IMG/VR virus record: IMGVR_UViG_3300010885_065766 | Coordinates: 1-25,476 of that record | DNA length: 25,476 nt | Source: a virus | Reading direction: 5' to 3' (one strand) | Shown here: positions 3,144 to 25,476 of the stretch, piece by piece | How positions within the stretch are numbered: the stretch's first letter is position 1 | How the letters are laid out: every line of letters starts with the position of its first letter | The notes under the pieces: generated by a model | The model's database searches: none | Seen by the model: only the letters and a program-made list of their open reading frames with translations | Told to the model about the DNA's origin: nothing | Position numbers and translations under genes: made by a program

Positions 3144-3907
3144 ATGTTGAGCTAATGAATTACACAGCAGATGCTATGGACTTGCTACTGCGTACAAAAA
3201 ACACCCGACTCAAATTCGATCAAGACCCTGCAAATTGGTCTCAAGAGGAAAAAGAGCAACACATTGCGTACATGCGTGACACGATTGCCAGTTCTTGGGA
3301 GTTTGTCAATTACACCTTCCGCATAACAGGTGTCACTCGTGCTTTCACTCATCAATTGGTTCGCACTCGCACAGGGTCGTATGCACAAGAGTCGCAACGC
3401 ACCATTGACGCTTCTTTAAACAATGTTGTTAAGCCTGATCGAATCAATAACGATCATCGTGCTAACTTTGTTTGGAATCAAGCTGTCAAAGATCTGATGG
3501 AATCATATAGCCGATTGCTTGAATTGGGCATCCCCGCACAGGACGCTCGTGGTTTACTGCCGACTAATATTGAAACATCAATCATCGCCCAGTTCAATTT
3601 ACGCACATTGAGTGGCATGATGGAAAAACGTCTCTGCCCAAGAACTCAAGGTGAGTATCAAAATGTCGCTAGAGAAATGCGCAGACTCGTTATTGAAGCT
3701 CACCCATGGGCTGCAGACTTCCTCGATGTTCATTGCGCTGTTCATGGCACTTGCGCTTTTCCTCGTTGGGGTGTTAAAGAGTGCAAGATCTATCCAGAAA
3801 CAGTCGGCAATGATAAACAATTTGCGATCCGAGACAAGATTCGTAAGGTTATTGAAATTGTTCGTCAAGAAGCTGTACCGATCGCAGTCGGCGCTAAAAC
3901 GATGTGA
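3140..3907 (+). CDS. thyX: flavin-dependent thymidylate synthase, divergent
   Basis: ThyX makes dTMP from dUMP using methylene-tetrahydrofolate and FAD/NADPH. The 255-residue product has FRITGVTRAFTHQLVRTRTG and then YAQESQR (residues ~60-87), matching the ThyX signature RHRx7S but as R75-T76-R77-x7-S85. The dUMP-binding stretch QDARGLLP (134-141) and a C-terminal NLRTLSGMMEKRL...TQGEYQ segment (153-174) follow the ThyX order. Two departures are visible: His to Thr in the signature, and Gln174 where the well-studied enzymes have the arginine of their EIR motif. A Cys/His cluster (H198, C199, C205, C215) follows near the C-terminus. The gene overlaps the flavoprotein by an ATGA. Assignment to the ThyX family is firm; activity is inferred. 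Confidence 0.88.
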   Translation: MNVELMNYTADAMDLLLRTKNTRLKFDQDPANWSQEEKEQHIAYMRDTIASSWEFVNYTFRITGVTRAFTHQLVRTRTGSYAQESQRTIDASLNNVVKPDRINNDHRANFVWNQAVKDLMESYSRLLELGIPAQDARGLLPTNIETSIIAQFNLRTLSGMMEKRLCPRTQGEYQNVAREMRRLVIEAHPWAADFLDVHCAVHGTCAFPRWGVKECKIYPETVGNDKQFAIRDKIRKVIEIVRQEAVPIAVGAKTM

Positions 3908-4337: not shown

Positions 4338-4627
4338 AAAGTGTGCCAGAAATTTTAAGATCAGGAGCAGAAACCTATGATCAACGAAACAGAATTTACG
4401 GTGACAACTATAAAAAGTTTGGACACCTTATGGGATTTCTTTTCCCTGACGGAATCCCTGTCTCCACTGCAGAAGATCACAATCGTCTTGGTATTTTCAT
4501 TCAGTGTCTTAGTAAGCTGACAAGGTATGCTGAAAGTATGAAAAATGGTGGCCATGCAGATTCTGCCCATGACCTTTGCGTTTACGCTGCTATGCTTGAA
4601 GAGCTGACTGATGATAATCCTACTTGA
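4334..4627 (+). CDS. DUF6378-like (MazG-related fold) phage protein
   Basis: This 97-residue, mostly helical protein contains AETYDQRNRIYGDNYKKFGH near the start and later KLTRYAESMKNGGHADSAHD, the pattern (R-x-x-YG-[DN]...K...R...D...D...YAA) seen in DUF6378 proteins, a small phage family related to MazG-type nucleotide pyrophosphohydrolases. Family knowledge would allow a dNTP-pool role, but the acidic metal-binding residues of true MazG enzymes (EExxE) are not clearly present, so I do not call an enzyme. The ATG overlaps the HAD stop (ATGA) and the end overlaps the exonuclease by 17 bases. Confidence 0.65.
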   Translation: MKSVPEILRSGAETYDQRNRIYGDNYKKFGHLMGFLFPDGIPVSTAEDHNRLGIFIQCLSKLTRYAESMKNGGHADSAHDLCVYAAMLEELTDDNPT

Positions 4628-5141
4628 CTTTGAAACGACAGGTTTGACGTTGCCTAGTTCGTCTGATCTTATGCTACAACCGAAAGTAATCGAGATCGGT
4701 GCGATCAAAGCGCATGAAAATGGTCACGTCGAAGAGTGGAGCGAGCTAATTGATCCTGAGCAGGAAATATCTGCAGAGATCACCAAGATCACAGGCATAA
4801 AACCAGAACAGCTCAAAGGCAAAAGGAAGTTCATCGAAATCCTCCCAGAGCTGGCTGAATTTTTTATTGGTTCGCAAACCCTCGTAGCCCATAATCTTGC
4901 TTTTGATCGTGATGTGCTTTATTATGAGTTGTTGCGTCATGGTTGGGAGAGGAGATTTCCTTTCCCGCCAAATCAGGTTTGTACCGTTGACAGCACCATG
5001 CACATAAAAGGCAGAAGGCTCAAGTTGGTTGAGCTTTATGAAATTACACAAGGCAAGAAATTAGACCAAACCCACAGAGCGTTGGATGACGTCAAGGCTC
5101 TTTACGAATGTTACAAAAAACTCGATGCTGACAAGAACTGA
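4611..5141 (+). CDS. dnaQ: DEDDh 3'-5' exonuclease (DnaQ/Pol III epsilon-like proofreading subunit)
   Basis: The DnaQ fold is clear in 176 residues: motif ExoI ILLDFETTG with D6 and E8; VIEIGAI after it; ExoII VAHNLAFDRDVL with D99; ExoIII THRALDD with H155 and D160. All five DEDDh catalytic positions are therefore present and the protein should be an active metal-dependent 3'-5' exonuclease. No clamp-binding motif or C-terminal polymerase-binding tail of the E. coli epsilon type is evident. It starts 17 bases inside the preceding gene and ends 17 bases inside the polymerase gene, so it is almost certainly co-translated with the polymerase and is inferred to proofread for it. Confidence 0.88.
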   Translation: MIILLDFETTGLTLPSSSDLMLQPKVIEIGAIKAHENGHVEEWSELIDPEQEISAEITKITGIKPEQLKGKRKFIEILPELAEFFIGSQTLVAHNLAFDRDVLYYELLRHGWERRFPFPPNQVCTVDSTMHIKGRRLKLVELYEITQGKKLDQTHRALDDVKALYECYKKLDADKN

Positions 5142-7854
5142 ATACACCTTTGGTGAATGCTTTGGACCGATCGATTCGGTGATCGCTCGCGCTAAGGCTA
5201 TAAACTGCCACCGACCTGCCATTTGCGATTTTGGCACTTGGGGTCACGTTCCTTTTTACAAAGCTGCGATGAAGGCTGAACTCGATCCGATCATGGGTGC
5301 GGAGTTGCCGATTGGCGATGAGGAAAGGTCTGTGAAGGTCTTGGCTAAGAATCAAGAAGGTTTGCGTGAGTTGTACAGGCTTAGTGCTGGTGCTTCTTAC
5401 GAAACTGAATTCTCAAACAACTTAATTGTGTTCCCATTCACTGCAGATCCTGAGAAAATAAAAGCAGCTGATTTTGTTTTGGATTTGCACCCACTGAACA
5501 AGGTGATCAATGAACGAAATATTGTGTTGGCGCAAAGACGGAAACTCCCTCTCTTTTTCATCTCTGATGTCAGGTATCCAGCTCCAACCGACCGCAGATA
5601 CGCCGAACTGTTGGGAGTTAGGCTCGGATCACATTCGCAACATTGGTTCTCTGAAGACGAAGTTATCTCAACCTACAGCGATTCAGTTCGCTGGCTAGAT
5701 ATATCTGAGCGAATAGAGTCCGTAACGCTTCCTGTGGCCAAAAATATGGTCGTAGGAGGCGATTTAGAAGCAGAGGCAAGGAAAGGTATCAACTGGCGGT
5801 TTCCAAATGGCTGGAGCGATGAATACGAGGCTAGGTTACAGCGAGAATTAGGTGTGATCAGGGAAAAACAGTTTGAATCTTACTTTTTGATGGTTTATGA
5901 CCTGATCCGCTGGGCGAGGGAGCGAATGCTTGTTGGTCCAGGACGTGGTTCATCATCAGGCTCGATCATTTGTTACTTGCTTGGCATCACCGAACTTGAC
6001 CCGATCGAGCATGGTTTGCTGTTCGAGCGATTTGTTGATGTGACCCGAATTGACTTACCCGATATCGACATGGACTTTCCAGGTGATCGGCGAGATGAGC
6101 TGTTTGTTTACCTCAAGCAAAAATATGGCTCAGAAAGCATCGCAAGACTAGGCAACGTCAACAGGATGAAGCCACGATCAATTTTGGCTCAGGTGGGCAA
6201 GCGTATGAAGATCCCTGTTTGGGAAACAACTGAAATACGCGACAACATGATCGAACGATCGTCAGGTGATTCGCGTGCAGCGTTTTGCTTGAATGATACA
6301 TTGGAAACTCTTAAAGCGGGAAGAGACCTACTTGAAAATCACCCAGGATTTAAGGACGCAGGAGCACTCGAGGGACACGCCTCGCATGCAGGAGTGCATT
6401 CTGCTGGGGTAATTATTTGCGACACGCCTGTGGCTGATTACTGCTCTGTAACAGGCGAAGGCATAGGTCAGATCGACAAGTACCAAGCTGAGTCGATTAA
6501 CCTCATGAAGCTGGACGTGCTGGGGCTGAAAACACTCGACATCGTTCAGGAAACGCTTGACGAAGTCGGAAAGAAAATTGAAGACATCGACGTCAACGCC
6601 AAAGAAATTTATGAGTTGCTCAACAGCCAAAAGATTACTGGGGTGTTTCAGCTTGAAGGTGATGCAGCAAGGCAATTGCTCAGGCAGTTCGAAGTTAGAG
6701 ATTTCAACGACATTGTTGCGCTGACTTCGTTGGCTCGTCCTGGACCACTTCAATCAGGCGGTGCAATGAAGTTTTTGGACATCCGCAACAACAAAGACAC
6801 ACCCTTTTATTATCACGAGCTGCATAAAAAGTGGACAGAGCAAACCGAAGGCATTGTCGTTTATCAGGAACAGATTTTGTTTTTGGGCAGAGACATTGGC
6901 TTGCTTGGCTGGCCAGAGTTGACAGCCTTGCGGAGAGCGATGAGTAAGTCGCTAGGCAAAGAGTATTTCGATCAGTTCAGGGATAAGTTTTTGCTGGGTG
7001 CAGAAAGCCAGAACATCGACCGCAACGCAGCGTCTGAGATTTGGAACTCAATGATGCACGCTGGCTCGTATGCATTCGTGAAAGCCCACGCAGCAGCGTA
7101 CTCTGTTATTTCTGCTTGGACAGCTTGGTTGAAGTATCACTACCCACTTCAGTTCTCAGCTGCATCGCTGCGCCACACCTCAGATGATGAGGCTGTTCTC
7201 AAGCTGCTCAGAGAAATAACTTCTGAAGGTTACAAGTATGTAGCATTCAACAAAGACTTTTCTGAAGCCTCTTGGGCAGCTAAAGGTGATGCCATTTATG
7301 GTGGGCTCATGGCGGTTCACGGTGTTGGTCCAAAGATGGCGCAAAAGATCCTCGCTGCAAGGAATGGTGGCAAACCATTGACACCTAGCATACTTGCCAA
7401 GCTTGAAACTCCTAAATTGAAATGGCCAGACCCATACCCATTTACTGCTCGTTTCGGCGATTGGTATGAAAACCCTAGGAGTCATGGGTTGAAAGATGGA
7501 TGGCAGCTAACTAAGTGCAACGACCTTGAGGCAGACGGGAAGGAGCATGTAGTCTTGGGCATCATGACGGAAAAGAACATACGTGACGCTATGGAAACTG
7601 GTAACGTGATCAAGCGTGGTGGCATCTCAACTGATTACGACTTGGAGTTTCGCTATTGGCTCAACATAACACTCAAAGATGATACAGGCTTGATGATCGC
7701 GACAGTCAGTAGGAAAGATTATCCTAAGCTAGGAAAAGAGATCCTCGAAACAGTGCCAGTTGGCGCTGCTGTTTTAGTTCGTGGGAAGATGGGTACGAAT
7801 GGTATCCGAAAATTGTACATTCAAAAATGGAAGGTGGTGAATGATGAGTCATAA
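5125..7854 (+). CDS. dnaE: C-family DNA polymerase (Pol III alpha / DnaE-like)
   Basis: Replicative polymerase of 909 residues counted from ATG 5125; an in-frame ATG at 5086 is possible but lies deeper in the exonuclease gene. Order of parts: an N-terminal PHP domain (LTRTEYTFGEC..., CDFGTWGHVPFYKAA), whose metal-site histidines are mostly lost; the palm with GPGRGSSSGS (~271-280) and PDIDMDF with catalytic D315 and D317; LMKLDVLGLKTL with the third Asp D464; FQLEGDAARQLL, ARPGPLQSGG; then FVKAHAAAYSVISAWTAWLK, a helix-hairpin-helix (HGVGPKMAQKIL) and an OB-like C-terminus (VLVRGKMGTNGIRKLYI). It is shorter than bacterial DnaE (~1160). The degenerate PHP domain fits the separate DEDDh exonuclease upstream supplying proofreading. 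Confidence 0.93.
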   Translation: MLTRTEYTFGECFGPIDSVIARAKAINCHRPAICDFGTWGHVPFYKAAMKAELDPIMGAELPIGDEERSVKVLAKNQEGLRELYRLSAGASYETEFSNNLIVFPFTADPEKIKAADFVLDLHPLNKVINERNIVLAQRRKLPLFFISDVRYPAPTDRRYAELLGVRLGSHSQHWFSEDEVISTYSDSVRWLDISERIESVTLPVAKNMVVGGDLEAEARKGINWRFPNGWSDEYEARLQRELGVIREKQFESYFLMVYDLIRWARERMLVGPGRGSSSGSIICYLLGITELDPIEHGLLFERFVDVTRIDLPDIDMDFPGDRRDELFVYLKQKYGSESIARLGNVNRMKPRSILAQVGKRMKIPVWETTEIRDNMIERSSGDSRAAFCLNDTLETLKAGRDLLENHPGFKDAGALEGHASHAGVHSAGVIICDTPVADYCSVTGEGIGQIDKYQAESINLMKLDVLGLKTLDIVQETLDEVGKKIEDIDVNAKEIYELLNSQKITGVFQLEGDAARQLLRQFEVRDFNDIVALTSLARPGPLQSGGAMKFLDIRNNKDTPFYYHELHKKWTEQTEGIVVYQEQILFLGRDIGLLGWPELTALRRAMSKSLGKEYFDQFRDKFLLGAESQNIDRNAASEIWNSMMHAGSYAFVKAHAAAYSVISAWTAWLKYHYPLQFSAASLRHTSDDEAVLKLLREITSEGYKYVAFNKDFSEASWAAKGDAIYGGLMAVHGVGPKMAQKILAARNGGKPLTPSILAKLETPKLKWPDPYPFTARFGDWYENPRSHGLKDGWQLTKCNDLEADGKEHVVLGIMTEKNIRDAMETGNVIKRGGISTDYDLEFRYWLNITLKDDTGLMIATVSRKDYPKLGKEILETVPVGAAVLVRGKMGTNGIRKLYIQKWKVVNDES

Positions 7855-7999
7855 AGATATAAGACAGTCTTATGAGGAGTGGCTTAAATTGCTCGAAGAA
7901 ACAGGTAATAAAGATCTTCTAGATGACCACTTTAATGTTTGGCTTGAGGCTTGGCATGTTGCTTCAGTTCTTGCTCATGAAAAAAAAGCCCAGCACTAG
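7841..7999 (+). CDS. 52-aa hypothetical protein at the end of the replication block
   Basis: ATG at 7841 lies 14 bases inside the polymerase gene, with AAGGTGG (7831-7837) as a ribosome site; a second ATG follows at once. The product is an acidic/aromatic helical peptide (YEEWLKLLEE, FNVWLEAWHVASVLAHEKK). It ends at TAG 7997-7999, inside the loop of the hairpin that terminates the opposite strand, so its last six codons are also terminator DNA. The codon pattern and tight overlap support a real gene, but I do not recognise a family. Confidence 0.65.
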   Translation: MMSHKDIRQSYEEWLKLLEETGNKDLLDDHFNVWLEAWHVASVLAHEKKAQH

Positions 8000-8006
8000 G
8001 CTGGGC
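7981..8006 (-). terminator. intrinsic terminator of the minus-strand late block
   Basis: GCCCAGC (7988-7994) pairs perfectly with GCTGGGC (8000-8006) around a 5-base loop. On the minus strand the stem is followed directly by seven Ts (7987-7981). This is a GC-rich 7-bp stem plus U-tract 36 bases downstream of the last late gene's stop (8042), a textbook Rho-independent terminator for right-to-left transcription. For + strand transcripts only four to five As follow, so it is not a good terminator in that direction. Confidence 0.85.
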
Positions 8007-14117: not shown

Positions 14118-14351
14118 TTACCCTATTATATTCATAATTCCGACCAAGTTCTCAGCCCACTCCTGCCAGCTTTCGAACCCTCTCTGATCAGGCACACCGG
14201 AGTTTACAAAATATCCAATGCCTTGCATACCATCAGCCCAATTACGCCAATTTTCTTCTTCAGCCGTGCCAAGCTGATTCGCTGCGAACAACTCAGCCAT
14301 CCTAGCGCACCACTCATCCCAAGACAGACCTCGTGGGTCAATTGTTACCAT
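14118..14351 (-). CDS. small acidic Trp-rich phage protein, 77 aa
   Basis: 77 residues with six tryptophans and strongly acidic helices (GLSWDEWCARMAELFAANQL; EENWRNWADGMQGIGYF; FESWQEWAENLVGIMN). The repeated W-x-x-W-A pattern suggests two similar helical hairpins packing on a partner. Its first base is the last base of the upstream nozzle gene's stop codon, so it is translated right after it. Such small proteins are common next to nozzle genes in podovirus-like genomes, but no function is known to me. Confidence 0.7.
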   Translation of the reverse strand: MVTIDPRGLSWDEWCARMAELFAANQLGTAEEENWRNWADGMQGIGYFVNSGVPDQRGFESWQEWAENLVGIMNIIG

Positions 14352-16609
14352 CAGGGATTACCTGTAGAACGCTCATCACCCATGTCGGTGCTCAGCAAGA
14401 CATTACCCATCTCATAATTACCATTGAAGGTGTTGCTTGTAAATCTTAATCGCATCTCACGACGTTGTTCACGCATGTCAATTTTAAGCGTGGTGCCATC
14501 AAAGTAATAAGGGTCAGAAACGACATCAACATCTTCCGCATAACCTTTACCGTAAATTGTCACACTCATTTGACCAGACTGCACAAAGTCAGGTTCAACT
14601 CGCTCCAAGCGTATCCATTTGTTGTCACCTAACAGTTGCTGATTTCCTGGACCACCTGTCACCCAACCGATGTTGTTGGTTTCAAAATAAGAGTTGACTG
14701 CATCGACGTTGGTATACAAAATTTTATCCGTGCCGATTTCATGCTGCCATAAACTGTAGTTCGGGAAAACAGTTGGGGTAATAGTCAAACCAGTTCCAGA
14801 ACCTGACAAAGCTGTTGTAGCAGTGGTTGCGGAAAATGTGTTTGAATAATTACCACCACTGATGATCGTTATACCTGTTGCAGGACCAGTAGCACCGCCA
14901 CCTGAAATCGAAGTTACGGAAACGCTTCCTGGAGTTCCATTGCCATTGACACGTATAACGTCATTCACCGCATAGCCTGTACCACCTGCAGAAACAGAAG
15001 CTGAACTTAAAAAGTAGCCAGAAAAAGTATTATCAGCCCAGATTGGATATTTAAAAACTTCAGAAAACAAACCAGCAGAGCGGGTTGCTCCATCAGCGAA
15101 CCCAGCATCATACCAAACTTTTTCTCTTACGTTATAAATAAGAGCGTTGTTGCACTCTGTAGAGGTGCCAGAAGGATAGAACCACCAAATCTCACCCCAT
15201 CGAGGTATTTTGGTCGCCCAGACTTTTTGACGCTGATCGTAATTAATATTGTCAAAAAAGAAATTAAGGTTAGCTTCGTTTTTGATTTCTTGAACGACAC
15301 CGTTGTAAGCCAAAAATCTATCCACACCACACCAGTAAATGATGCCGTCATATTCAATAACACTTTGAGAAGACATAATTGACGTTTGAGTAGATATAAT
15401 ATCATAACGCCAATAAACCGTAGAAGTGCCTACTGTTTGTGGTGCTAAAGAAACACGAGTTAGTTGATCAAGCGACCAAAACAATCCAGAAGGAGAAGTT
15501 GTACCACCTCGCAGCGCCATACCTTTGACAATTTTTGTTGCAGAGACATTGTTCGAGTTTGCGTCCGCAGCTGTCCAGTTTGTAAAGTCACCCGCACTGC
15601 TATTTTGAATCAGACCATTGTTGCCATAAACGAACAGGTAAGGATAAAGTAGGCAAGCACCGCCAGAAACTGAAATCTGATTGTCAAAAGTAATCGCATT
15701 GTTTTGTGCAGGTGTGGTCGAAGTTGATACGTTGACAACTGTGTTGGCGCTGCCTGTAAAGGTTACAGAAGAGCCAGAAGTGCCGACAGTTTGGGAAACG
15801 CTAACGGTGTATGTTCCAAGACCGCCTATACCAGTTACTAGGGCAGTAATTGTTGTCCCTGCAGCTATACCCACAGTGCTTGTACCTGTGATCTTCTGAC
15901 CCACATATAAAGCACCTACGTTGGCTGTAACAGTTAGCGTAGTACCCGCAATGTAACCTGTAATCGTGCTGTTGGCGTAAACAATAGGAGGAGGAGAAAC
16001 AACAGTCGTGCCAGCAGTAATACCAGTGCCTGTGACAAGCTGGTTCAAACCAATCCTGTAATCAGACTGACCAATTATAATTACAGTTCCGTTTTGGTAT
16101 GTCGGCAGAGAGGCAGAACCCGTTATGGTAAAAACCCCCACAGGACTTAACGTGCCTCCAGGAAATGAACCAGAAAGGACAGGAGAGTTAACGGTGCTGT
16201 CAATGTTGGTTAAATTTTTTCCAGGATGAGCGACAACCTGCATGCCTGTTTGCGATGAGTTGTAGCCAACGTCAAACTGCCAAAGATTGTTCGGACTCGC
16301 TGTGAAGCCAGAGCTAGGTGTTACATCTGTTGGTCCAAAACCAATACCTGCGTTGTTACCTGTAATCCAATATTTTAAAAAACTAGAAGAGCCTGAATAA
16401 ACATAGTTCAAGCCTGATTGGGATTGCATAACCATCCCACGACTTATCTCTGGTGCGTTTGAAAATAATGCTCTATAACCACCGATCTTTCTCGGTCTGC
16501 CACGCTGAAAACGAACCCATTGACCATCCACAAACATAGGAGCGTCAAACAGGGTTCCGTCTCTTTGGATCCCAGCATTTATTTTCAGAGATATAACTTT
16601 AGCTGTCAA
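14351..16609 (-). CDS. tail nozzle / P22 gp10-like stabilisation protein with inserted modules, 752 aa
   Basis: Residues 1-80 ([20 protein letters not shown], then [18 protein letters not shown]) and ~340-540 ([37 protein letters not shown]) look like the beta-propeller of phage nozzle proteins related to P22 gp10. Two foreign-looking inserts split it: a Gly/Thr module (~216-280) and a [11 protein letters not shown] type beta module (~533-613). The C-terminus ([30 protein letters not shown]) is typical for the family. The start is TTG 16609, overlapping the preceding stop as TTGA; no ATG occurs before residue 25, which is inside the conserved part. Role: lower end of the tail channel. Confidence 0.75.
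14770..15006 (-). repeat. inserted GGxGYxVND-type beta module in the nozzle gene
   Basis: The encoded segment [20 protein letters not shown] then [20 protein letters not shown]...NYSNTF is a Gly/Thr-rich beta module that also circulates among unrelated phage and environmental fibre proteins. It sits between two conserved propeller segments, as an insertion would. Single copy in this window. Confidence 0.55.
15770..15964 (-). repeat. shared Gly/Thr module, copy in nozzle gene
   Basis: Encodes residues ~216-280: [20 protein letters not shown]...[14 protein letters not shown]...[12 protein letters not shown]. The same plan (TGxIxGTTLTV, a ~10-residue linker ending GxxIxG, GTxITALGTG, GTYTVSxSQTV) is found in the 980-aa and 256-aa genes. 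Bases 15786-15818 match 21902-21934 at 28 of 33 positions. Confidence 0.8.
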
Positions 16610-17856
16610 AATGACCCCGCCCCAATAGCCACAGCGATTAAGTTCGTCGCTGTGAATTGATACCTTTGGATTTGGTTGATTGAAATGTCAACCTCTGATG
16701 TTGCACCACTTCCAACAAAATAAACACCTGTTGTAGTTTCAGCTCCAGTTACTGTTGGCGCAACAGCAGAACCGTTAGCCAAGTTTAGCGGTGAAGTAAC
16801 TGACCCAGAAGCAGAGGAAGTTGCGTTATAAACATTTGTTCCATCACTAACCAAAAGAGCGACTTTGCCTTGGGTTACAAGAACACCCACACTGCCAGAG
16901 GCTGATGTTTTTACAGTTACGGTAAAAGTACCACTGGTGTTGTTGTAAAAACTATACAACTGAACGGTCGGTGGAAGGATGATCGTCTGGGCAGCGGTTA
17001 GAGTTCCAGTTAAAGTTTGAATCGTGCTTGATGCTTGAAGGGAAGTTTCTGTAATCGTACCGCTGTTTGCAGCCAGCGTTAGCTGAGTGTAAGGAAAAGC
17101 GTTTGACCTTCCGTAAGCAAACGAGTACCAAGTCGTACCAGCAGAAACTAAAACAAGCGACTCACCTAGCTGAAGCTGCTGATTCGAGCTGCCGTCAATA
17201 AGGTCTGTATTGCTTGGGTAACCAGCTGGGTTCAACGTCAATATACCTGTTCCATCATTTTTAATAATGGTGAACCAGTTAGCTGTAACTGAGGAGGCAG
17301 AGGGCAGCGTTATAATCCCTGCACCACCTGTCCAAACGATCATTTGAGCTCTGGCAGCTGAAGTTAAAGTCGTAGCGGAGCTTAGTGTTTGAACAACGTA
17401 TTGTTGATTCAGTGTCGTGCTAAGGGCAACCAAACCCGCACCAGCGAGTGAAGCAGCATTAGCGGCAGAAGTACCTGCACCAAAAGTTATAGCCGACCAA
17501 GAGCCATTGGCAGTTGTGTTGTCTGTCAGGTAAATATAAACCGCAATGCCAGACGCTACACCTGTGGGGATTGAAGCGATTGTGTTTCCGCTTATGTCTG
17601 TAACGGTAAAAGTATTCGCCCCAACGTTGCGGATTAAAACAGCTTGGCCAGTCGACACTTGAAGAGCTGTCGGAAGTAGCAGGTTCAAACCCGCAGTTAA
17701 CGCTGAAACTTCAATAATATTCGCAACCACATTTGTGGTGTCGTTGCCATTGATTGGCCATTGCAGGGTCGTGCTTGCAGAAATGGTTAGAGATTCGTAA
17801 CCAACCTGTGCAGGTGAAATTGTTTGTGCTGTAAACGGATTTGTATAAGTAGTCAT
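16606..17856 (-). CDS. beta-rich virion protein (tail fibre / head-fibre-like), 416 aa
   Basis: The protein is almost entirely Thr/Ser/Ala/Gly/Val-rich short beta strands, with no cysteine. The start ([20 protein letters not shown]) followed by [20 protein letters not shown] and repeated blocks ([60 protein letters not shown]) resembles phage fibre or capsid-decoration proteins built of repeated beta blocks. The C-terminal ~70 residues ([20 protein letters not shown]) look like a separate small domain. The junction with the adaptor gene is TAATCATG and it overlaps the nozzle gene by 4 bases, so the three are co-translated. Exact location in the virion cannot be decided from sequence. Confidence 0.7.
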
Positions 17857-17858
17857 GA

Positions 17859-18488
17859 TTACGAATCCTGAACGATTGTTTGACGATCAGCAAGACGAGT
17901 TTTGTCTTCATTTGACAACAATTGAATCGCTTCTGTGTATTTCTGCTGAAATATTTGCCGCTGATCATTTTTCAAAAACGGCATAGCTTGCAGCAATGTT
18001 CCGAAAATGACCGCATTCGGTGCATTTTGAGTCGCCCAATTTGTCTGATTTGTGGAAGACAAAGGATTGAGACGCTCGTAATAAAGCACCTCAAAAGGAT
18101 AGGACTGATCAGGAGTGGGAGAAACTAGCCAGTGTCCGTAGTCGTAATCAGCATAGTACAAGGGCTGACCTGCGGCAGTGCCAGAATTGTAATTTAATAA
18201 ATATTCGTATTTTCTCAGCAATATGGGGTTTGGCACATTGTTAACAGTGACATTCATTGAAACTGTTTTTCGCCACCTAGCTGGTTTAGCAATGATTGGG
18301 TTACCAGCGTTCATAACGCTTTCAACGACAACCTGCTGACCCAAAGTTTTTATTTGCTGGGCTAATTCAAATTCACAAAGTGTAATGAATGTTGGAATTT
18401 GATTTACGACAGCAGCATCATTACGCTCGAGATATTGTTCAACCGTAGTGATCAAATTGTCATAAGTAAGAACAAATGAGGCAGTCAT
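17859..18488 (-). CDS. phage adaptor (head-tail connector) protein, SU10-adaptor-like, 209 aa
   Basis: Helical 209-residue protein beginning MTASFVLTYDNLITTVEQYL, then PTFITLCEFELAQQIKTLGQ and KPARWRKTVSMNVTVNNVPN, with a middle beta hairpin/loop (LLRKYEYLLNYNSG; QPLYYADYDYGHWLVSPTPD) and a closing helical segment (FGTLLQAMPFLKNDQRQIFQ; YTEAIQLLSNEDKTRLADRQ). This order matches the adaptor family described for SU10-like podoviruses, which rings the portal and receives the nozzle. Adjacent nozzle-type gene supports this. ATG 18488 is preceded by AAAGGCG. Confidence 0.8.
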   Translation of the reverse strand: MTASFVLTYDNLITTVEQYLERNDAAVVNQIPTFITLCEFELAQQIKTLGQQVVVESVMNAGNPIIAKPARWRKTVSMNVTVNNVPNPILLRKYEYLLNYNSGTAAGQPLYYADYDYGHWLVSPTPDQSYPFEVLYYERLNPLSSTNQTNWATQNAPNAVIFGTLLQAMPFLKNDQRQIFQQKYTEAIQLLSNEDKTRLADRQTIVQDS

Positions 18489-18500
18489 TTTATTCGCCTT

Positions 18501-18977
18501 TTAACTTAAATAAAACGCACGTTCATCTTTGCGTCGGTTATCAAGTCCTTTCAAGACTTTCCCGCCAGCTTTGTTATATTTCAAAAATTCGTCGGCAGCT
18601 CCTTCGTAGTCGCCTCTGTTATGCTTTTGTCGCAGTGTGCTTCTTTGTAAAGTGCCCAAACCTACATTAAAGGAAAAACTGACCAAAGCGTCCAGCCAGT
18701 TTTGCTTGCCACCAGCATTAGGGCAATATTTAAGAACTCCACGTTCAAATTTCTCAAGGTCTTTTGCAAGTATTGCATCGACTTCTTCCATTGTAAACAA
18801 ACGATCCCAGCCAGTTGGGCAAGGCATGCAAATTCTTTGGTCAACCTTCATACTGCACTGATTGGGGTCAATTACATGACCAACCCCAATCGTCCACAGC
18901 TTCGCTGGGCACTGATAGGGTTTCAACCGCACCCCCTCATGGTGCTTAATCAAATTTAAGGCTTTGGCGCTTATCAT
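18501..18977 (-). CDS. endolysin, GH24 lysozyme (muramidase)
   Basis: Hydrolyses the peptidoglycan N-acetylmuramic acid-GlcNAc bond. In 158 residues the catalytic cleft reads HHEGVRLKPYQCPAKLWTIG: E14, then C23 eight residues later and T29 five after that, the E-8-C-5-T arrangement used by P1 Lyz-type and many Gram-negative phage lysozymes instead of E-8-D-5-T of T4. GVGH and the C-terminal LVSFSFNVGLGTLQRSTLRQ block are conserved family features. There is no signal peptide or SAR anchor, so export depends on the holin. The ATG overlaps the stop of a 25-codon micro-ORF (ATGA). Confidence 0.93.
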   Translation of the reverse strand: MISAKALNLIKHHEGVRLKPYQCPAKLWTIGVGHVIDPNQCSMKVDQRICMPCPTGWDRLFTMEEVDAILAKDLEKFERGVLKYCPNAGGKQNWLDALVSFSFNVGLGTLQRSTLRQKHNRGDYEGAADEFLKYNKAGGKVLKGLDNRRKDERAFYLS

Positions 18978-19051
18978 TTGGGCAAATGCAGAATTAAATA
19001 AGAACTAGCTAACACGGTAACCAGCATCCTGAAATAAATAGCGTAGATCAT
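18974..19051 (-). CDS. 25-aa hydrophobic micro-ORF between holin and endolysin
   Basis: ATG at 19051 overlaps the holin's TGA (ATGA, 19051-19048); its own TGA (18976-18974) overlaps the lysozyme ATG (18977) as ATGA. The 25-residue peptide begins MIYAIYFRMLVTVL and is hydrophobic throughout (ASSYLILHL), ending Pro-Lys: a single membrane helix. It occupies the whole space between two well-defined lysis genes with perfect coupling at both ends, unlikely for noncoding sequence. The role could be a holin antagonist, a lysis accessory, or only a reinitiation bridge; sequence does not decide. Confidence 0.55.
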   Translation of the reverse strand: MIYAIYFRMLVTVLASSYLILHLPK

Positions 19052-19563
19052 TTCCCAAATGCTCTTCCACCGAAATGAAAAGCAATTATACTGGCAAAAA
19101 GAGCCTGAGTCTCATCATCCCACAGTTGATTTGCTAAGGTATTAAAGTCGACACCGCTAGTAATCCCTTTATAAGCTAAAGTTGCATCTATGGCTACTAG
19201 TAAGAAGAAAAACCCATAGGTGATCACAGGTCTAACACTGGCTCGCAAGTCTTTCATCCAGCCAGACGTTCCTTCATTTAAGGAGATGTCATGAGCATAA
19301 ATGGCTTGCATTTCAGCTTTCTGAGCGTCAACTAAAGACACCTTTTCAGCAGACTGAGTCTGGGTTTTAATCTCATCAAGTTTAATCTCTTCAATGTGTT
19401 GCTGGGCTAAGTAACCTGCAGCGGCTAATTGAAGTTCACGATCTGTTTGCAGTTGGGCTAATTTTAGCTCGTGGCTCTTATCAGCTTTGTCTTGAAAAAA
19501 ATCAAGTATTTTAGGCAAACCACCCATCAGGAATGAAACTAATGTTGAAAATATGGTAAGCAT
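19048..19563 (-). CDS. 3-TM holin (GTA_holin_3TM family)
   Basis: 171 residues with the plan of the GTA_holin_3TM family: an N-terminal hydrophobic/amphipathic segment (LTIFSTLVSFLMGGLPKILD), a long charged coiled region (~24-110, DKSHELKLAQLQTDRELQLA), then WMKDLRASVRPVITYGFFFL with LVAIDATLAY as a second membrane helix, and a C-terminal ALFASIIAFHFGGRAFGK that ends the family characteristically. It permeabilises the inner membrane to let the lysozyme reach the cell wall. Start ATG 19563 has AAAGGTGA upstream and lies next to the 97-aa gene stop. Confidence 0.85.
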   Translation of the reverse strand: MLTIFSTLVSFLMGGLPKILDFFQDKADKSHELKLAQLQTDRELQLAAAGYLAQQHIEEIKLDEIKTQTQSAEKVSLVDAQKAEMQAIYAHDISLNEGTSGWMKDLRASVRPVITYGFFFLLVAIDATLAYKGITSGVDFNTLANQLWDDETQALFASIIAFHFGGRAFGK

Positions 19564-19856
19564 TATTCACCTTTCATTTCTAATAAAATTCTAACTCGCA
19601 ACTCTCGCATTTTTCTTGCTTCTTCCATTGCCATAGCTGTTGCATTATTCATGTCCATGTACGCTATGCCCATTACAGGCAAAACTAGAACTAGCACAAT
19701 ACACAATACCAATACGGTAATGAGTAAAGACCACGGAATGTTTGGCTCGTCCTTATCAGCACCATCACCCATAGAAACCATAATATTATGAACGCGACCG
19801 CTAGAATTAACGTCATCTGCTCCGCGATTTTTCTTTTTAAACTTGCCCGTCGCCAT
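19563..19856 (-). CDS. 97-aa membrane protein of the lysis cassette, nested start
   Basis: Basic cytoplasmic start (MATGKFKKKNR), a stretch GRVHNIMVSMGDGADKDEPN, then one strongly hydrophobic segment (WSLLITVLVLCIVLVLVLPV; ~42-66) and an Ala/Met/Glu/Arg C-terminal helix (ATAMAMEEARKMRELRVRIL). It starts inside the upstream 181-aa gene in another frame; 166 bases are shared. AGGTGG five bases before the ATG supports initiation. The wording IPWS-hydrophobic-PVMGI-DMNNA recurs, as I recall it, in small membrane proteins of related phages, so it is a real gene. Orientation (N-in, coiled C-terminus outside) would fit an i-spanin-like role but this is not shown. Confidence 0.75.
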   Translation of the reverse strand: MATGKFKKKNRGADDVNSSGRVHNIMVSMGDGADKDEPNIPWSLLITVLVLCIVLVLVLPVMGIAYMDMNNATAMAMEEARKMRELRVRILLEMKGE

Positions 19857-20236
19857 TGAGCCACCTGTTGCTTTAGTAACTCTTGCCGCTGAACCTCTGC
19901 ACGTTCTGCTTTAATCTTGTCACGCATCACTTCAAATTCAGACCAGATAGCACCCAACTCTTTTGGGGCTTGATAAACCATCATTTCTCTTAATTCAGTT
20001 TCCAGCCTTTGCATTTCTTTTTGCGCCAAGATCCGATTAAATGCTTCTTGGTTAACCGAGAGTTCAGGGTCGCGAGTTTTCTTTGCTTTTAACTCTTCTT
20101 CGTGAACATGTTTTTCAAGTTGCTGATGCGCTTTAAAAAAGTTTCCCAAATGGCTGCTAATGTCAGCAACAACATCTTTGGCTTGACCATAGGCATCGAC
20201 AAGCTCCATGCCTTGCGCTTTGTATTCTTGATACAT
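19691..20236 (-). CDS. coiled-coil protein with C-terminal membrane anchor, 181 aa (may start earlier)
   Basis: The conventional ATG at 20236 (AAGG 7 bases before it) gives 181 residues: charged helical region with KAHQQLEKHVHEEELKAKKT and QEAFNRILAQKEMQRLETEL, REMMVYQAPKELGAIWSEFE in the middle (a block I recall from related phage proteins), and a C-terminal membrane helix (MTLILAVAFIILWFLWVMVL). The frame is open back to 20302, adding residues EPLTILAAAKLAASAIKQGC, which resembles the true N-terminus of this family; the only possible start for it is ATT at 20302, one base after the previous stop. The 3' end overlaps the 97-aa gene by 166 bases. Function unknown. Confidence 0.75.
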   Translation of the reverse strand: MYQEYKAQGMELVDAYGQAKDVVADISSHLGNFFKAHQQLEKHVHEEELKAKKTRDPELSVNQEAFNRILAQKEMQRLETELREMMVYQAPKELGAIWSEFEVMRDKIKAERAEVQRQELLKQQVAQWRRASLKRKIAEQMTLILAVAFIILWFLWVMVLIRTSQTFRGLYSLPYWYCVLC

Positions 20237-20303
20237 AGCGCAGCCTTGTTTAATTGCGCTTGCAGCCAGTTTTGCAGCTGCAAGAATAGTAAGTGGTTCA
20301 ATT

Positions 20304-20498
20304 TTATAAACCTAACAATTTTTTAACAAACTCAGCAGCAACTCCAGGACCAAAAAGCAGTATGAGCATTATGGCGTAAAGAATATACTCAATTTTGCTC
20401 ATTCGTTTTTCACCGGCATTTAGTTGATTGCAGATCTGTTCGTATCTTTGAGCACAGATAGCTTCGTGAACTGCAAAATTTTTTTCTAAATCATTCAT
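20304..20498 (-). CDS. 64-aa small membrane protein, XhlA-like plan
   Basis: An N-terminal soluble helix (MNDLEKNFAVHEAICAQRYE) with Lys/Glu heptads leads into KIEYILYAIMLILLFGPG, one membrane segment, and a short amphipathic end (AAEFVKKLLGL). The coiled helix plus one C-terminal membrane helix is the plan of XhlA-type lysis accessory proteins, which fits the neighbourhood, but the family is not proven. ATG 20498 is preceded by AGGCTGA, which includes the stop of the 980-aa fibre gene. Confidence 0.7.
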   Translation of the reverse strand: MNDLEKNFAVHEAICAQRYEQICNQLNAGEKRMSKIEYILYAIMLILLFGPGVAAEFVKKLLGL

Positions 20499-20502
20499 TT
20501 GA

Positions 20503-23445
20503 TCAGCCTATAATAAAACCGTTAGAACCGCCACCTTGCGTGAATAAAATGTTTGTGTTGTTTCCTTTGTCAGCTTGATAGCCGTATGCACGAATTGTGT
20601 TCGTTGCATTTATGTCTTGGTACGTTATGTAATAAGTTGAGCTACCTACTGGGATCGATAAGTACGCCTGATTGCCAACTGAATCTGAGCTTAAATTTAA
20701 ATAGTAAGTCGCATTGCCAGCTATGTTGAATGGATTAACAACGAAAGTTTTATTGTTGGCTAATTTTATGTTTATGTTTCCGCTGTCATTCGTCCAACCT
20801 TGCGCGAAAGTTGTATTTGTATCCACCGAAACAGTAGCTGTGGTTCTTGAACCTGTGGAGTTTGAAAACTTTAATTGATAGAACCCACCATTGACAGAGG
20901 TAAAAGAACTATCACCAGATAAATTAACCAGCAAGTTTGTATTTGAAAAAGAACTTTTATTAAAATTAAAACCACTTACGATCGCTTTTCCAGAGCCAGC
21001 TGTAGCTGTAATTAGACCAAGTCCTGTAAGATAAAAATTTGTAATGTTTGCAGTTTGAACATCGAAAGCAAGTGTTCCTGAAATTACATTGAAACTCAAA
21101 AAAGAACAGGAGGCTGAAAGAGTATAAACACCACTTATGGATTCTAAATAAATACGGTTGTAGTACCCAGAAGATGGAAAAGTTTGATTTGACCTATTCA
21201 TCAAATGCATTGTTAAACTAACACCTCCTGGATTGTACCAAGCAGATGTATTGTACCAATACTGAGTAGTTATTAAATCTGGTATTAAAGTTGTAACTGT
21301 TTTAGTTCCGTAAACGTAATAATCAGTTAGGTAACCTGGAATTGAATTGTTGCCGTACAAAGTTACTTGGGGAGTAAAAGTCAACCCTGTGCTTGGCTTA
21401 GCATTAACAGTTGTAATAGCAGTGCCATCAAGTTTAACCAACTTAAAAGTGCTATTGTTGTTTGTCGCGGAAACTTTGTATACACCCGCAGTTAAACCAG
21501 AGCCACCTGTATTTATACCTGTTACTTGAACAGCTTGATCGATTGAAATCGTCAAACCCAAAGTTGCAGTAAAACTAAAATCGCCAGTTGTGCTTGTGGT
21601 GGTAACTGTAGCACCATCACTGGGAAAATATTGAGTGTACTGAGAAAACACACCTGTAAATCCACTAGCAACTGTTATTTTTGGAAGATTCACCATGTCT
21701 GGTGTTATGTAACCAGAACCTGAATTCGAATCAAAAACAACTTGGTCTTGTGCTAAAGGGATCCGACCAGTTGTAGTGACACCACCAGAGGTGGTCGCCC
21801 ACATACCTCCAGCAGCTGGTGAATTTGACCAGTTGAAGTTATTACCCGCAGTCACTGCGTAATAAATAACTCCCCTAGTGTCAAAAGAAGTTCCCGCAGC
21901 GACTGTTTGAGAAATGCTAACCGTATATGTTCCAGCTCCGCCAGTGCCAGTGCCAAGAGCTGTAATGTAAGTTCCTGAAGCGGTTGTTCCTCCGAAGAGT
22001 TGAGCTCCAACTATAATTGTGCCGTAAGTAGGGGCAGCTGCAGTTAATATAGTTCCTACAATTTGCCCTGTAAAAACAGCGAGGCCAGTGCCGGAATATA
22101 CACCTCCCGTGCCACCAAGATCACCAACAGAGGTGGCAACAATAGCTTTGCCAACAGTTCCAGTTATACTTTCAATGTCGCAGTTTGTTAAAGCAGAAGC
22201 GACCGAAGTGCTGGTTGAATTTAAAGTAGTTAAAGCTCCTGTCCTTGTCGGACCAGACAAACGCAATCTATTTGCTACAGAGTTACCCGCGATGTTAAAA
22301 CTATTACAAGTCGTTTCGCTGTATAAAGTAAATGTGCTGCTTTTGTTTACCCCACCATTTCTAACTAAAGTGCCAAAGCTGTTCGCAGCTGTGGTGCCAC
22401 TGTAAGCTTGAATGGAAGAGTTTGTATTGTTTAAAGTGAGTGTGCCAAGAAGTGACGCACCAGTTATTTCGAAACTAGATTCAGTTGCATAAGCACAATA
22501 TTTATATCCGATAGTTATCGCAGTTGAAGCATTGTCTGTCACGACGATATTTGCAGTAGTTCCGTCTATTTGGAAACGAGAAATTGATAGTTGATCGGTT
22601 AAGTTCGTGCCGATGTTTAAAGTCGCACCAGCTAGAGCGATCGTAACTAGACCCGCAGGGTTGTAAGATGCATAAAAATAATTCTGATACGCAGCATTTA
22701 CTATGCTAAAAGTTTTACCCGTAGCAAAAGTTAAATTAGCAGATGCGTCTATATAGCTGTAACCCAATGGGTTGCTAATCGTTGCGCTGTTTGTTAAAGT
22801 TACATTCCCAGAGGTTATATTTAACGTCTGCATTTGACCTAAAGCCAAATTGTAAGTTAAAGTGTCACCCGCAACAGTTACCGCACCAAGGAAAGCTGTA
22901 CCTGTATTTGTCGCTGTTTGAGTTGTGGTCGGAGCAACAGCGACGAAATTTAAATTTAAATAATTATCGACAGTAACAATTGTCGTGGAGGTAAGAGTTT
23001 GAGAAACGTCGACTGTCCAAGAAAGTCCACTGCCACCTGTAATTGTTGTATTTAAAGCAACACCAGCGACTGAAAGTACAGCGCCAATTTTAATTATTCC
23101 AGACGTAACCGCTGAAACTGTAAGTGTCGTACCTGAAATCGAACCTGTAAAAGTAGCAGCTGACCTAGCTGAGGTGTCCGAGCTTAGGTTGCCATAAAGG
23201 TTTAAAGAGTTTGAAGGTATACACTGAAAATACAAACCTGTAGGAATTGCAGTAACTGTAAAGTTATTACAAGTAGCTGTAGCTCCTATCGTTATCGTGC
23301 CAGTTCCAGAGGATGCGTTGAAAGTAACGTTATCAGCTGAAGTTGGGAAAAGAGTTGGGCTGACAGCACCACCAGAAGCAGTTGACCAATTTCCTGGGGT
23401 GTTATCCCAAGTCCCTGATCCACCAACCCAATAATAGTTTGCCAT
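20503..23445 (-). CDS. large fibre-like beta-repeat virion protein, 980 aa
   Basis: Begins MANYYWVGGSGTWDNTPGNW, the recognisable start of phage fibre-like proteins with a W-N-x-x-NW/PTSADN pattern. A related block (NNFNWSNSPAAGGMWATTSG then RIPLAQDQVVFDSNSG) recurs around residues ~523-581, suggesting internal duplication. Two copies of the shared Gly/Thr module are at ~97-156 and ~456-520. A further Gly/Thr block (TGDFSFTATLGLTISIDQAV) is near ~620-680. The rest is a beta-helix-like series of short strands ending in a small Gly-rich tail. It reads like a receptor-binding or fibre protein. GAGAAA upstream and an 11-base spacer to the next gene. Receptor unknown. Confidence 0.72.
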   Translation of the reverse strand: MANYYWVGGSGTWDNTPGNWSTASGGAVSPTLFPTSADNVTFNASSGTGTITIGATATCNNFTVTAIPTGLYFQCIPSNSLNLYGNLSSDTSARSAATFTGSISGTTLTVSAVTSGIIKIGAVLSVAGVALNTTITGGSGLSWTVDVSQTLTSTTIVTVDNYLNLNFVAVAPTTTQTATNTGTAFLGAVTVAGDTLTYNLALGQMQTLNITSGNVTLTNSATISNPLGYSYIDASANLTFATGKTFSIVNAAYQNYFYASYNPAGLVTIALAGATLNIGTNLTDQLSISRFQIDGTTANIVVTDNASTAITIGYKYCAYATESSFEITGASLLGTLTLNNTNSSIQAYSGTTAANSFGTLVRNGGVNKSSTFTLYSETTCNSFNIAGNSVANRLRLSGPTRTGALTTLNSTSTSVASALTNCDIESITGTVGKAIVATSVGDLGGTGGVYSGTGLAVFTGQIVGTILTAAAPTYGTIIVGAQLFGGTTASGTYITALGTGTGGAGTYTVSISQTVAAGTSFDTRGVIYYAVTAGNNFNWSNSPAAGGMWATTSGGVTTTGRIPLAQDQVVFDSNSGSGYITPDMVNLPKITVASGFTGVFSQYTQYFPSDGATVTTTSTTGDFSFTATLGLTISIDQAVQVTGINTGGSGLTAGVYKVSATNNNSTFKLVKLDGTAITTVNAKPSTGLTFTPQVTLYGNNSIPGYLTDYYVYGTKTVTTLIPDLITTQYWYNTSAWYNPGGVSLTMHLMNRSNQTFPSSGYYNRIYLESISGVYTLSASCSFLSFNVISGTLAFDVQTANITNFYLTGLGLITATAGSGKAIVSGFNFNKSSFSNTNLLVNLSGDSSFTSVNGGFYQLKFSNSTGSRTTATVSVDTNTTFAQGWTNDSGNINIKLANNKTFVVNPFNIAGNATYYLNLSSDSVGNQAYLSIPVGSSTYYITYQDINATNTIRAYGYQADKGNNTNILFTQGGGSNGFIIG
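21885..22080 (-). repeat. shared Gly/Thr module, second copy in the 980-aa gene
   Basis: Encodes FTGQIVGTILTAAAPTYGTI...GTYITALGTGTGGAGTYTVS-SQTVAAG. Of all pairs, this copy and the nozzle-gene copy are closest at DNA level in their 3' part (28 of 33 bases at 21902-21934), which points to a fairly recent exchange. Confidence 0.8.
22978..23157 (-). repeat. shared Gly/Thr module, first copy in the 980-aa gene
   Basis: Encodes TFTGSISGTTLTVSAVTSGI...GVALNTTITGGSGLS-WTVDVSQTLTS. The central TALGTGTGG stretch is shorter and more degenerate here (TGGSGLS), so this is an older or eroded copy. Confidence 0.7.
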
Positions 23446-23456
23446 TGATTTTCTCT

Positions 23457-24227
23457 TTAAGATCTAACAACAGTCAACGACAAAGAAACTCGAGTTATGT
23501 TTGTAATTGAGTTTATATTGAACCGCAGCGTGTCACCTGCGTTTATAGTAGTAACCCAACCAGTTAATGTCGAGCTTTGAGCTTTTATAGCGGAGGAAAT
23601 GGTTGGCGCTCCTGCACCTGCTGTGGTCATTGCTTGAGAAGAAACTGTCGCAACGCTATTTCCAGTTATACCATAAGTGCCCGCACCGCCGCTGCCACTT
23701 CCGTAAGAGGTGATCGTAGTTCCTGGAGTTACTCCACCTGAAAGTGTTTGACCTAAAACGATAGTTCCTGTTGGGGTTGGAGAAGCTGCCACAGTAAGTG
23801 TCGTTGTGGTGGCAACAGATCCTGTAAAAGCAGCTGAACCTGTTATGTTGTTTGAAACAGTCGGTGGGTAATTACCGTAAGTGTTTTTCCAAATGTCAAC
23901 AACAACAGACCCAGATTGATCAGCCAGCAAAGTGTAAGAAGATATGGTGCATTTGAAAGGGATATAAAGATCACCTTTAACACCTGTTGTTAGTACAACA
24001 CCACCTCCGTCCATAACATAGGTGATAGAAATATTTGTGTTTGTGGCGAGTATCGCACTCGCTAACACTGCAGGTGAACCTGCGGGTGGCTGGTAATAAA
24101 GTTTACCGTCTGCATAATTCAACGCTATTTCGGAGCCTAGCGTTCCGCTATTAGTTATGGATCCAGCACCAGGAGCAACCCCAGCTGTTCCACTTCCGTA
24201 AATATATATTGGTTGAATTTTCGCCAT
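23457..24227 (-). CDS. tail-fibre-associated protein with shared Gly/Thr module, 256 aa
   Basis: N-terminus AKIQPIYIYGSGTAGVAPGA followed by SEIALNYADGKLYYQPPAGS is characteristic of small beta-rich phage tail proteins (the x-ALNYADGxLYY motif is frequent at collagen-like or appendage N-termini). ISITYVMDGGGVVLTTGVKG and IPFKCTISSYTLLADQSGSV begin a jelly-roll-like domain whose last strands (TLRFNINSITNITRVSLSLT) close at the C-terminus. The shared Gly/Thr module is inserted at ~132-200 in the middle of this domain. TTGAGGT before the ATG 24227 is the ribosome site. Likely a virion tail component upstream of the large fibre. Confidence 0.72.
   Translation of the reverse strand: MAKIQPIYIYGSGTAGVAPGAGSITNSGTLGSEIALNYADGKLYYQPPAGSPAVLASAILATNTNISITYVMDGGGVVLTTGVKGDLYIPFKCTISSYTLLADQSGSVVVDIWKNTYGNYPPTVSNNITGSAAFTGSVATTTTLTVAASPTPTGTIVLGQTLSGGVTPGTTITSYGSGSGGAGTYGITGNSVATVSSQAMTTAGAGAPTISSAIKAQSSTLTGWVTTINAGDTLRFNINSITNITRVSLSLTVVRS
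23628..23834 (-). repeat. shared Gly/Thr module, copy in the 256-aa gene
   Basis: Encodes FTGSVATTTTLTVAASPTPT...GGVTPGTTITSYGSGSGG-AGTYGITGNSVAT. It interrupts the jelly-roll-like domain between GNYPPTVSNN and GAGAPTISSAIK. Confidence 0.75.
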
Positions 24228-24476: not shown

Positions 24477-25476
24477 CTATTGAATTGGGAATGCCACAGT
24501 TGGAACTGATGTAACTCCTCTAGCTAATTTTGTTATTCTTACTTCATCAAGATACCCAACTAAAGCATTTGTTGAAGTTCTATCAAGAGCAACAAGCATC
24601 GTATCTGTATTATTAAAGTTATCTGTCACAGCACCTCCGCTTGTCGCCTCAAGAGTTGTTGATCCCGTTGTTCCTGAATATAATTTTAAATTTCCAGTTG
24701 CACTACCTGAACGAACAACAGCAAAATAATACCAAGTGTTAATTGATAAAGTAGTAGTTCCAGTTAAACTCGATGTTGTGTAGTTAAACTGAAGTTTATT
24801 GGCTGTAGTAATATCTACTGACCAACCTGTTGTTGATGTACCTTTGCTTATAAGACCATAAGCAACACTAGCTGAAGAAAAATATACCCAACCTTCAATT
24901 GTAAAATCACCAGTTCCCATTTGAAGATTCGGCGAATCTGGAATTGTCAACCAAGAATTAGAACCAGGAAAAGATAATGAAATTCCACCAAATTTGCTTT
25001 GAGTTGTACTTACCTGCGCGTTAACAAGAGTAACATTAGGGCTTTTAGCTGTTGCGTCATATATGCCTGAATTTGTATATCCTAAATACAGATTAGACCC
25101 TGCTGATGCCGATGGCGATGTGGGGACAGTAACAGTAGTAACTCCTGAACCAACAATTACTTTTGATGTCGTTATGTAACCAGAAAAACGGTCAAGTCCC
25201 GCGCTAGTTCCACGAGCACCTATCAATGGTCTATTTGTACCATTTACATACGTTGCTGAATCGGCAGAACCAGCACCTTGCAAAACACCATTAATAAATA
25301 ATCTTGTTGTGCTTGAAACTCTAGATGCAACAATATGAGTCCAAGCATTAAGGGGAGCTGAAGCAGTAGAACTAATTGTTAGACTGGTATTTGTAAATTG
25401 TATTTGTCCACCAGCTAATCTTTGCAAAATTGCTGATATAGTAGCAGATGATCTAAAGTCAATAATTTTACCGTTA
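24477..25476 (-). CDS. LamG/concanavalin A-like tail protein, C-terminal part (cut by window edge)
   Basis: The frame stays open to the right edge, adding NGKIIDFRSSATISAI before a TTG that could be mistaken for a start; that extra part continues the same jelly-roll, so the gene begins outside the window. Two LamG-type (laminin G / concanavalin A-like) domains are visible: one ending around LFINGVLQGAGSADS...FSGYITTSKVIVG, and a second from FGGISLSFPGSNSWLTIPDS through FTIEGWVYF, WYYFAVVRSGS and VGYLDEVRITKLARG. LamG domains in phage tail proteins bind host surface glycans. The stop at 24477 is 7 bases upstream of the next gene's ATG (24469). Confidence 0.82.
   Translation of the reverse strand, partial: NGKIIDFRSSATISAILQRLAGGQIQFTNTSLTISSTASAPLNAWTHIVASRVSSTTRLFINGVLQGAGSADSATYVNGTNRPLIGARGTSAGLDRFSGYITTSKVIVGSGVTTVTVPTSPSASAGSNLYLGYTNSGIYDATAKSPNVTLVNAQVSTTQSKFGGISLSFPGSNSWLTIPDSPNLQMGTGDFTIEGWVYFSSASVAYGLISKGTSTTGWSVDITTANKLQFNYTTSSLTGTTTLSINTWYYFAVVRSGSATGNLKLYSGTTGSTTLEATSGGAVTDNFNNTDTMLVALDRTSTNALVGYLDEVRITKLARGVTSVPTVAFPIQ

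Follow-up and report, generated by a model that had tools for sequence, protein, structure and literature searches.

A probable mobile decorating domain inserted in several virion proteins of phages

Introduction

Immunoglobulin (Ig)-like domains of phages are optional beta domains displayed on the exteriors of several virion proteins, and weak carbohydrate binding has been proposed for them (PMC8718954). In lactococcal phages of the 936 group, carbohydrate-binding modules (CBMs) are carried by the evolved Dit, TpeX and NPS proteins, and their binding to host cells has been tested (PMC6669499). Domains of the SU10 tail nozzle are inserted between propeller blades (PMC9509320), and a survey of phage domain mosaicism includes accounts of domains shuffled between functional classes, tail fibres and receptor-binding proteins among them (Smug et al. 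2023, PMC10684548). Here we describe a beta-rich module of about 67 residues, which we named M1 and which occurs in four copies in three virion genes of a 25,476-nucleotide stretch of viral DNA (IMG/VR record IMGVR_UViG_3300010885_065766, positions 1 to 25,476; the whole stretch is referred to below as the window). These genes encode a tail nozzle protein, a presumed virion surface protein of 980 amino acids (aa) and a 256-aa virion structural protein. Our best reading places M1, which is uncatalogued, as a new member in the known class of mobile domains that decorate virions.

M1 resembles the phage Ig-like domains (Big_1, Big_2 and FN3 in lambda gpV, T5 pb6 and SPP1 gp17.1, as well as Hoc) in being an optional accessory beta domain found in several kinds of virion protein. 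It differs from them in having no Pfam Ig match, in having small beta barrels as its nearest solved folds, and in being nearly always an internal insert, whereas theirs is a C-terminal extension. With the 936-phage modules it shares the property of being added to several virion proteins within a phage group; unlike those CBMs, it matches no CBM family and is devoid of the aromatic residues that typify CBM sites. The SU10 nozzle also offers a parallel, an accessory beta domain inserted in the nozzle protein at what is probably, by chain order only, the corresponding site, but M1 is not confined to nozzles. The mosaicism survey relies on known ECOD domains, and none of its passages retrieved by term describes M1. 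Finally, the profiles of PHROG 21413 and PHROG 38233 each contain an M1 copy; these are whole-protein families, named unknown and tail fibre, respectively, in which M1 is not recognised as a domain.

Results

An earlier sequence-only reading of the window had pointed to four segments of the same plan in three genes, and all four are present within a few bases of where it put them. We scored them with a leave-out profile whose M1 copies all came from nozzle proteins of other phages and which contained neither window sequence nor the close relatives L002 and L036. All four copies lie on the minus strand. The first (15761..15973) spans aa 213-283 of the nozzle protein, at a position that we call site A, and scores 67 bits. 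Two are in the 980-aa protein: a shortened copy without the LGTGTG turn (22972..23157, aa 97-158; 34 bits, E 8.5e-11) and a second one at 21886..22080 (aa 456-520; 53 bits, E 1e-16). The fourth (23622..23837) occupies aa 131-202 of the 256-aa protein (38 bits, E 7e-12). The profile has no match at E<1e-3 in the three host proteins beyond these four places, and shuffled versions of the same proteins (500 shuffles each) reach at most 9 bits, as opposed to 34-67 bits for the real copies. Pairwise protein identity between the window copies is 41-53%.

The nozzle gene (14351..16609, minus strand; phrog_3287) encodes a 752-aa protein of the P22 gp10 / T7 gp12 / SU10 gp17 type. Its label as a nozzle is supported by structure: the model matches the platform and beta-propeller fold of solved nozzles, and its best Foldseek matches are nozzle chains of Pa223 (E 4e-12), SU10 (E 2e-8) and T7 (E 4e-7), and also of VP1. 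Structure comparison gave Z 13.9 with Pa223 and Z 13.5 with P22 gp10, values that plain propellers equal.

An alignment of 80 nozzle relatives reveals two independent insertion sites, and all four on/off combinations of them are found. Depending on the phage, site A (window aa ~211-290) holds M1, a third module type M3, or nothing; at site B (aa 528-622), either M1 or another module, M2, is present, or the site is empty. M1 is absent from most homologues at site A, and homologues with and without it align cleanly. In the window, site B is occupied by M2 (14744..15028, minus strand), a module of the GGxGY.VxDV type that is modelled there with a predicted local distance difference test (pLDDT) score of 80-89. 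In the closest relatives of the window nozzle, L002 and L036 (88% identical), site A is occupied by M1 and site B is empty, M2 being absent; the clade L020-L029 carries M3 at site A (aa ~205-305). On a nozzle backbone tree, built with the insert columns removed, M1 alone requires at least five changes at site A and at least three at site B; when all module states are considered, with truncated rows excluded, six and seven changes are needed, respectively.

Two further observations concern these modules. In the spring-water phage MW202545 (L270), the nozzle carries an M2-like insert near aa 93-165, a third site that the clade of the window does not use. About ten matches to M3 (...YYIIATNGTTTFTLS...) lie in a single L130 protein.

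Insert-free nozzles of the clade have a short native domain at site A, M0, which is a divergent relative of M1 (hhalign probability 96%, E 3e-9; 39 column-shuffled controls gave at most 8.7% and the reversed control 0.1%). In the window its N-terminal half lies at 15974..16141 (minus strand; aa 157-212); its C-terminal half (15686..15748, minus strand; aa 288-308), recognised from the alignment of insert-free homologues, is cut off from it by M1. The nozzle of Caulobacter phage GB2A is without any of the inserts and without the whole of M0. From the alignments, the break in M0 would fall in the turn equivalent to the GTGTGG turn of M1 itself. It therefore looks as though, at this site, an older M1-family domain was invaded by another domain of the same family.

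The same pattern of presence and absence at one place is seen in the family of the 256-aa protein (23457..24227, minus strand; phrog_35197, E 1e-27; phrog_10330, E 1e-18). Its relative L082 is without M1 and aligns with a clean junction, and cyanophage homologues (28-33% identity) span the M1 place in one contiguous piece. Since the nozzle and 256-aa families thus include members without M1, the segment is not a constant part of all three host families. The 980-aa protein is encoded by an open reading frame at 20503..23445 (minus strand), and its only full-length relative, L085 (62% identity), has both M1 copies at the same places. A family search of the 980-aa protein gave no match outside M1; its previous description as a fibre fits its gene position and its composition, but receives no backing from any family. 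It also contains a weakly M3-like stretch (21373..21609, minus strand; aa 613-691; 17 bits, E 6e-4).

Modelled by AlphaFold2 as an isolated domain, as the sequence-only reading had proposed, the M1 copy at aa 456-520 of the 980-aa protein gives a confident predicted fold (pLDDT 95.8, predicted template-modelling score 0.82) with strands at residues 3-15, 39-45 and 51-67, of which the first and last are long. M1 is thus predicted to fold autonomously. Together with the module-free nozzle and 256-aa relatives, this bears out the earlier description of a discrete module that interrupts otherwise family-like proteins. In composition, M1 has 2% charged residues and 55% Ser, Thr and Gly, and conserved residues among 112 copies include a Tyr (99%), a Gln (98%) and a Ser (96%).

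Searches of domain collections leave M1 without a name. It was matched by no Pfam or NCBIfam model, and the window proteins have no match to Pfam Ig-like families at E<=1. A set of 62 M1-bearing proteins matched 17 families, none of them Ig-like except for a single HYR match to one whole protein; likewise, no CBM family matched M1, the only CBM_5_12 match belonging to one of the 62 whole host proteins. A sequence search of the PDB found no relative at E<=1 (one spurious row at E 1). The top solved-structure matches are small barrels of the translation-factor and F1-ATPase type (Z 5-6.6), which may reflect only a common arrangement. Kinship to the barrels of IF2, eRF3 and ATP synthase was considered and dropped, a Z of about 6 being typical of unrelated small barrels. 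Phage structures among the matches include Bridgette chain 1, residues 104-175 of the Mystique tail tube protein, and T5 pb9, and none stands clear. Chain 1 of Arthrobacter phage Bridgette (residues 9-73) was the best phage candidate (29% identity, 1.8 A over 59 residues, Z 6.4) and was set aside, as it ties with unrelated rows.

Beyond the window, we searched for M1 with a degenerate DNA pattern that encodes the GTYT.S.SQTV strand and that found 60 stretches in bacterial genomes, and we confirmed loci by profile. M1 is present at no fewer than 119 viral and 37 bacterial-genome loci; these counts are lower bounds, because the pattern favours canonical copies and the viral listing is incomplete. 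A tblastn search with M1 against phage and plasmid records gave no match, which is not proof of absence, since the low-complexity filter probably masks the query. Among the matches listed, 223 of 227 copies are internal to the host protein, 32 are directly tandem, and 31 short loci have M1 in two or more proteins, so several copies per phage are common and not special to this one. With the modules masked, the carriers among these matches fall into about 68 BLAST sequence clusters. All identified hosts are structural and comprise unrelated proteins: tail sheath, minor head protein, terminator, capsid, baseplate wedge, head closure, tail tube and tail fibres (for example, the neck terminator in L245, the capsid in L214, the baseplate wedge in L235 and the head closure in L124). 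Structure searches of BFVD agree, the M1 fold being found at a template-modelling score of about 0.9 in an HK97 capsid protein, in a gp10 DNA-stabilising protein, in a side tail fibre protein and in tail proteins.

Two occurrences deserve separate mention. An apparent prophage of Paraburkholderia elongata (L251) has M1 in its tail sheath (6753-8000), in its minor head protein (768-1886; three copies in tandem) and in a third protein (5987-6700). In BFVD, the M1 fold also appears in the collagen-repeat proteins A0A1V0SCQ2 and A0A1V0SDM6, assigned to Indivirus ILV1, a giant virus of eukaryotes; these matches reflect either a wider spread or a mixed metagenomic bin.

Discussion

M1 is optional at fixed sites, its structural hosts are unrelated, and it is predicted to fold by itself; for these reasons we read it as probably a mobile domain that inserts into and decorates phage virions. 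The first and last strands would be adjacent, so that M1 could be dropped into a surface loop and leave the host fold undisturbed. Movement would occur between phages by rare recombination and would be followed by vertical inheritance at each site. Several points weigh against this account or against parts of it. At site A the nozzle model has a pLDDT of 30-45, too low to show that M1 faces outwards. Searches for a relative of the 980-aa protein without M1 found none. The clusters of host proteins are BLAST-based, and remote kinship among them may inflate their number. Finally, M1 is nearly without charged and Trp residues and so offers no obvious ligand site; it has one conserved Tyr and one conserved Gln.

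As to function, M1 may be an exterior, nearly uncharged decoration, rich in Ser, Thr and Gly, that engages glycans of the cell surface or of the environment in weak, multivalent contacts. Weak surface adhesion is our leading guess, by analogy with the phage Ig-like domains and the carbohydrate-binding modules of 936 phages, and we hold it tentatively. The role ranked second concerns the nozzle, where M1 would contribute an extra domain at the wall or tip of the tail channel, where SU10 carries Ig-like nozzle domains, and may lengthen the tip as those domains do.

The alternative that survives best, although we regard it as unlikely, is that M1 has a chiefly structural role, lengthening nozzle, fibre or fibre-like proteins as a spacer or wall segment and binding no ligand. 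The tandem copies and the inert composition suit such a role, as does the probable location of M1 at the place of the SU10 nozzle domains (by chain order, PMC9509320); however, capsid, sheath, terminator and minor head proteins carry M1 too, and extra length has no obvious use there. It is less likely again that M1 is a selectively near-neutral passenger, inserted by recombination into tolerant surface loops. Repeated gain and loss, the wide range of host proteins and the several module types at the same sites would all be expected of a passenger, but selection is suggested both by the strong conservation of the Tyr, Gln and SQTV positions across distant phages, which could be for folding alone, and by the structural nature of every identified host.

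Recent duplication or gene conversion within the genome of this phage is a very improbable origin for the four copies. The sequence-only reading had noted that the nozzle and 980-aa genes share 28 of 33 bases within M1; this count is exact, but the match falls on the best-conserved peptide (GTYTVS.SQT, which is GTYTVSISQT in one copy). When both proteins were back-translated at random with the phage's own codon usage, the best 33-mer had 28 or more matches in 4.2% of cases (P 0.042), and the pair was one of six that could have been chosen; the match is therefore weak evidence of kinship at the DNA level. Across complete modules, codon sharing between window copies never significantly exceeds what protein conservation explains (P 0.08-0.81); it is highest, and nearest to favouring duplication, between the nozzle copy and the 980-aa protein copy labelled fib2, which share 16 codons versus 11.9 expected (P 0.08). 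Orthologous copies, which served as positive controls, do show an excess: P 0.009 for the nozzle copy versus L036, P <0.001 and 0.0095 for the two copies of the 980-aa protein versus L085, and P 0.002 for the copy of the 256-aa protein versus L085. M1 copies also group by site and not by genome: the nearest kin of each window copy is the copy at the same place in a relative, that of L036 for the nozzle (85% protein identity) and those of L085 for the other two proteins. The excess of shared codons among orthologues, missing among window copies, suggests that each copy has long been passed on at its own place. The earlier idea of a module that spreads holds for movement between unrelated virion genes over evolutionary time, and recent spread inside this genome is not supported by codon sharing.

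Convergence of low-complexity Gly/Thr beta sequences without common ancestry is the least credible alternative of all, for although phage tail proteins often contain sequences as rich in Ser, Thr and Gly as M1, composition-preserving shuffles stay at or below 9 bits, specific residues are conserved and there is a single confident predicted fold.

The exchange of modules also allows a more specific reading of the nozzle, as a protein with two or three standing docking sites that swap at least three module types (M1, M2 and M3) like cassettes, site A having been built recursively by the insertion of an M1-family domain into the hairpin turn of M0. We consider this possible but doubtful; if true, it would amount to a modular system that varies the tail tip across a large, mostly uncultured group of phages. 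The on/off pattern of M1 in an otherwise conserved nozzle makes the role of decorating domains testable by comparing relatives. Although environmental phages and prophages commonly carry M1, it has no Pfam or NCBIfam model, so that best-match annotation by PHROG 38233 would label any carrier a tail fibre; a named M1 domain would correct such mislabelling.

Other genes in the window

Alongside its short-tailed virion genes, the window encodes ThyX (3140-3907), a DnaQ-type exonuclease (4611-5141), a replicase resembling the DNA polymerase III alpha subunit (5086-7854) and a lysozyme (18501-18977). Beside the contig end, at 24477-25427, lies a possibly truncated protein with a Laminin_G_3 (concanavalin-like lectin) domain, a candidate adhesin.

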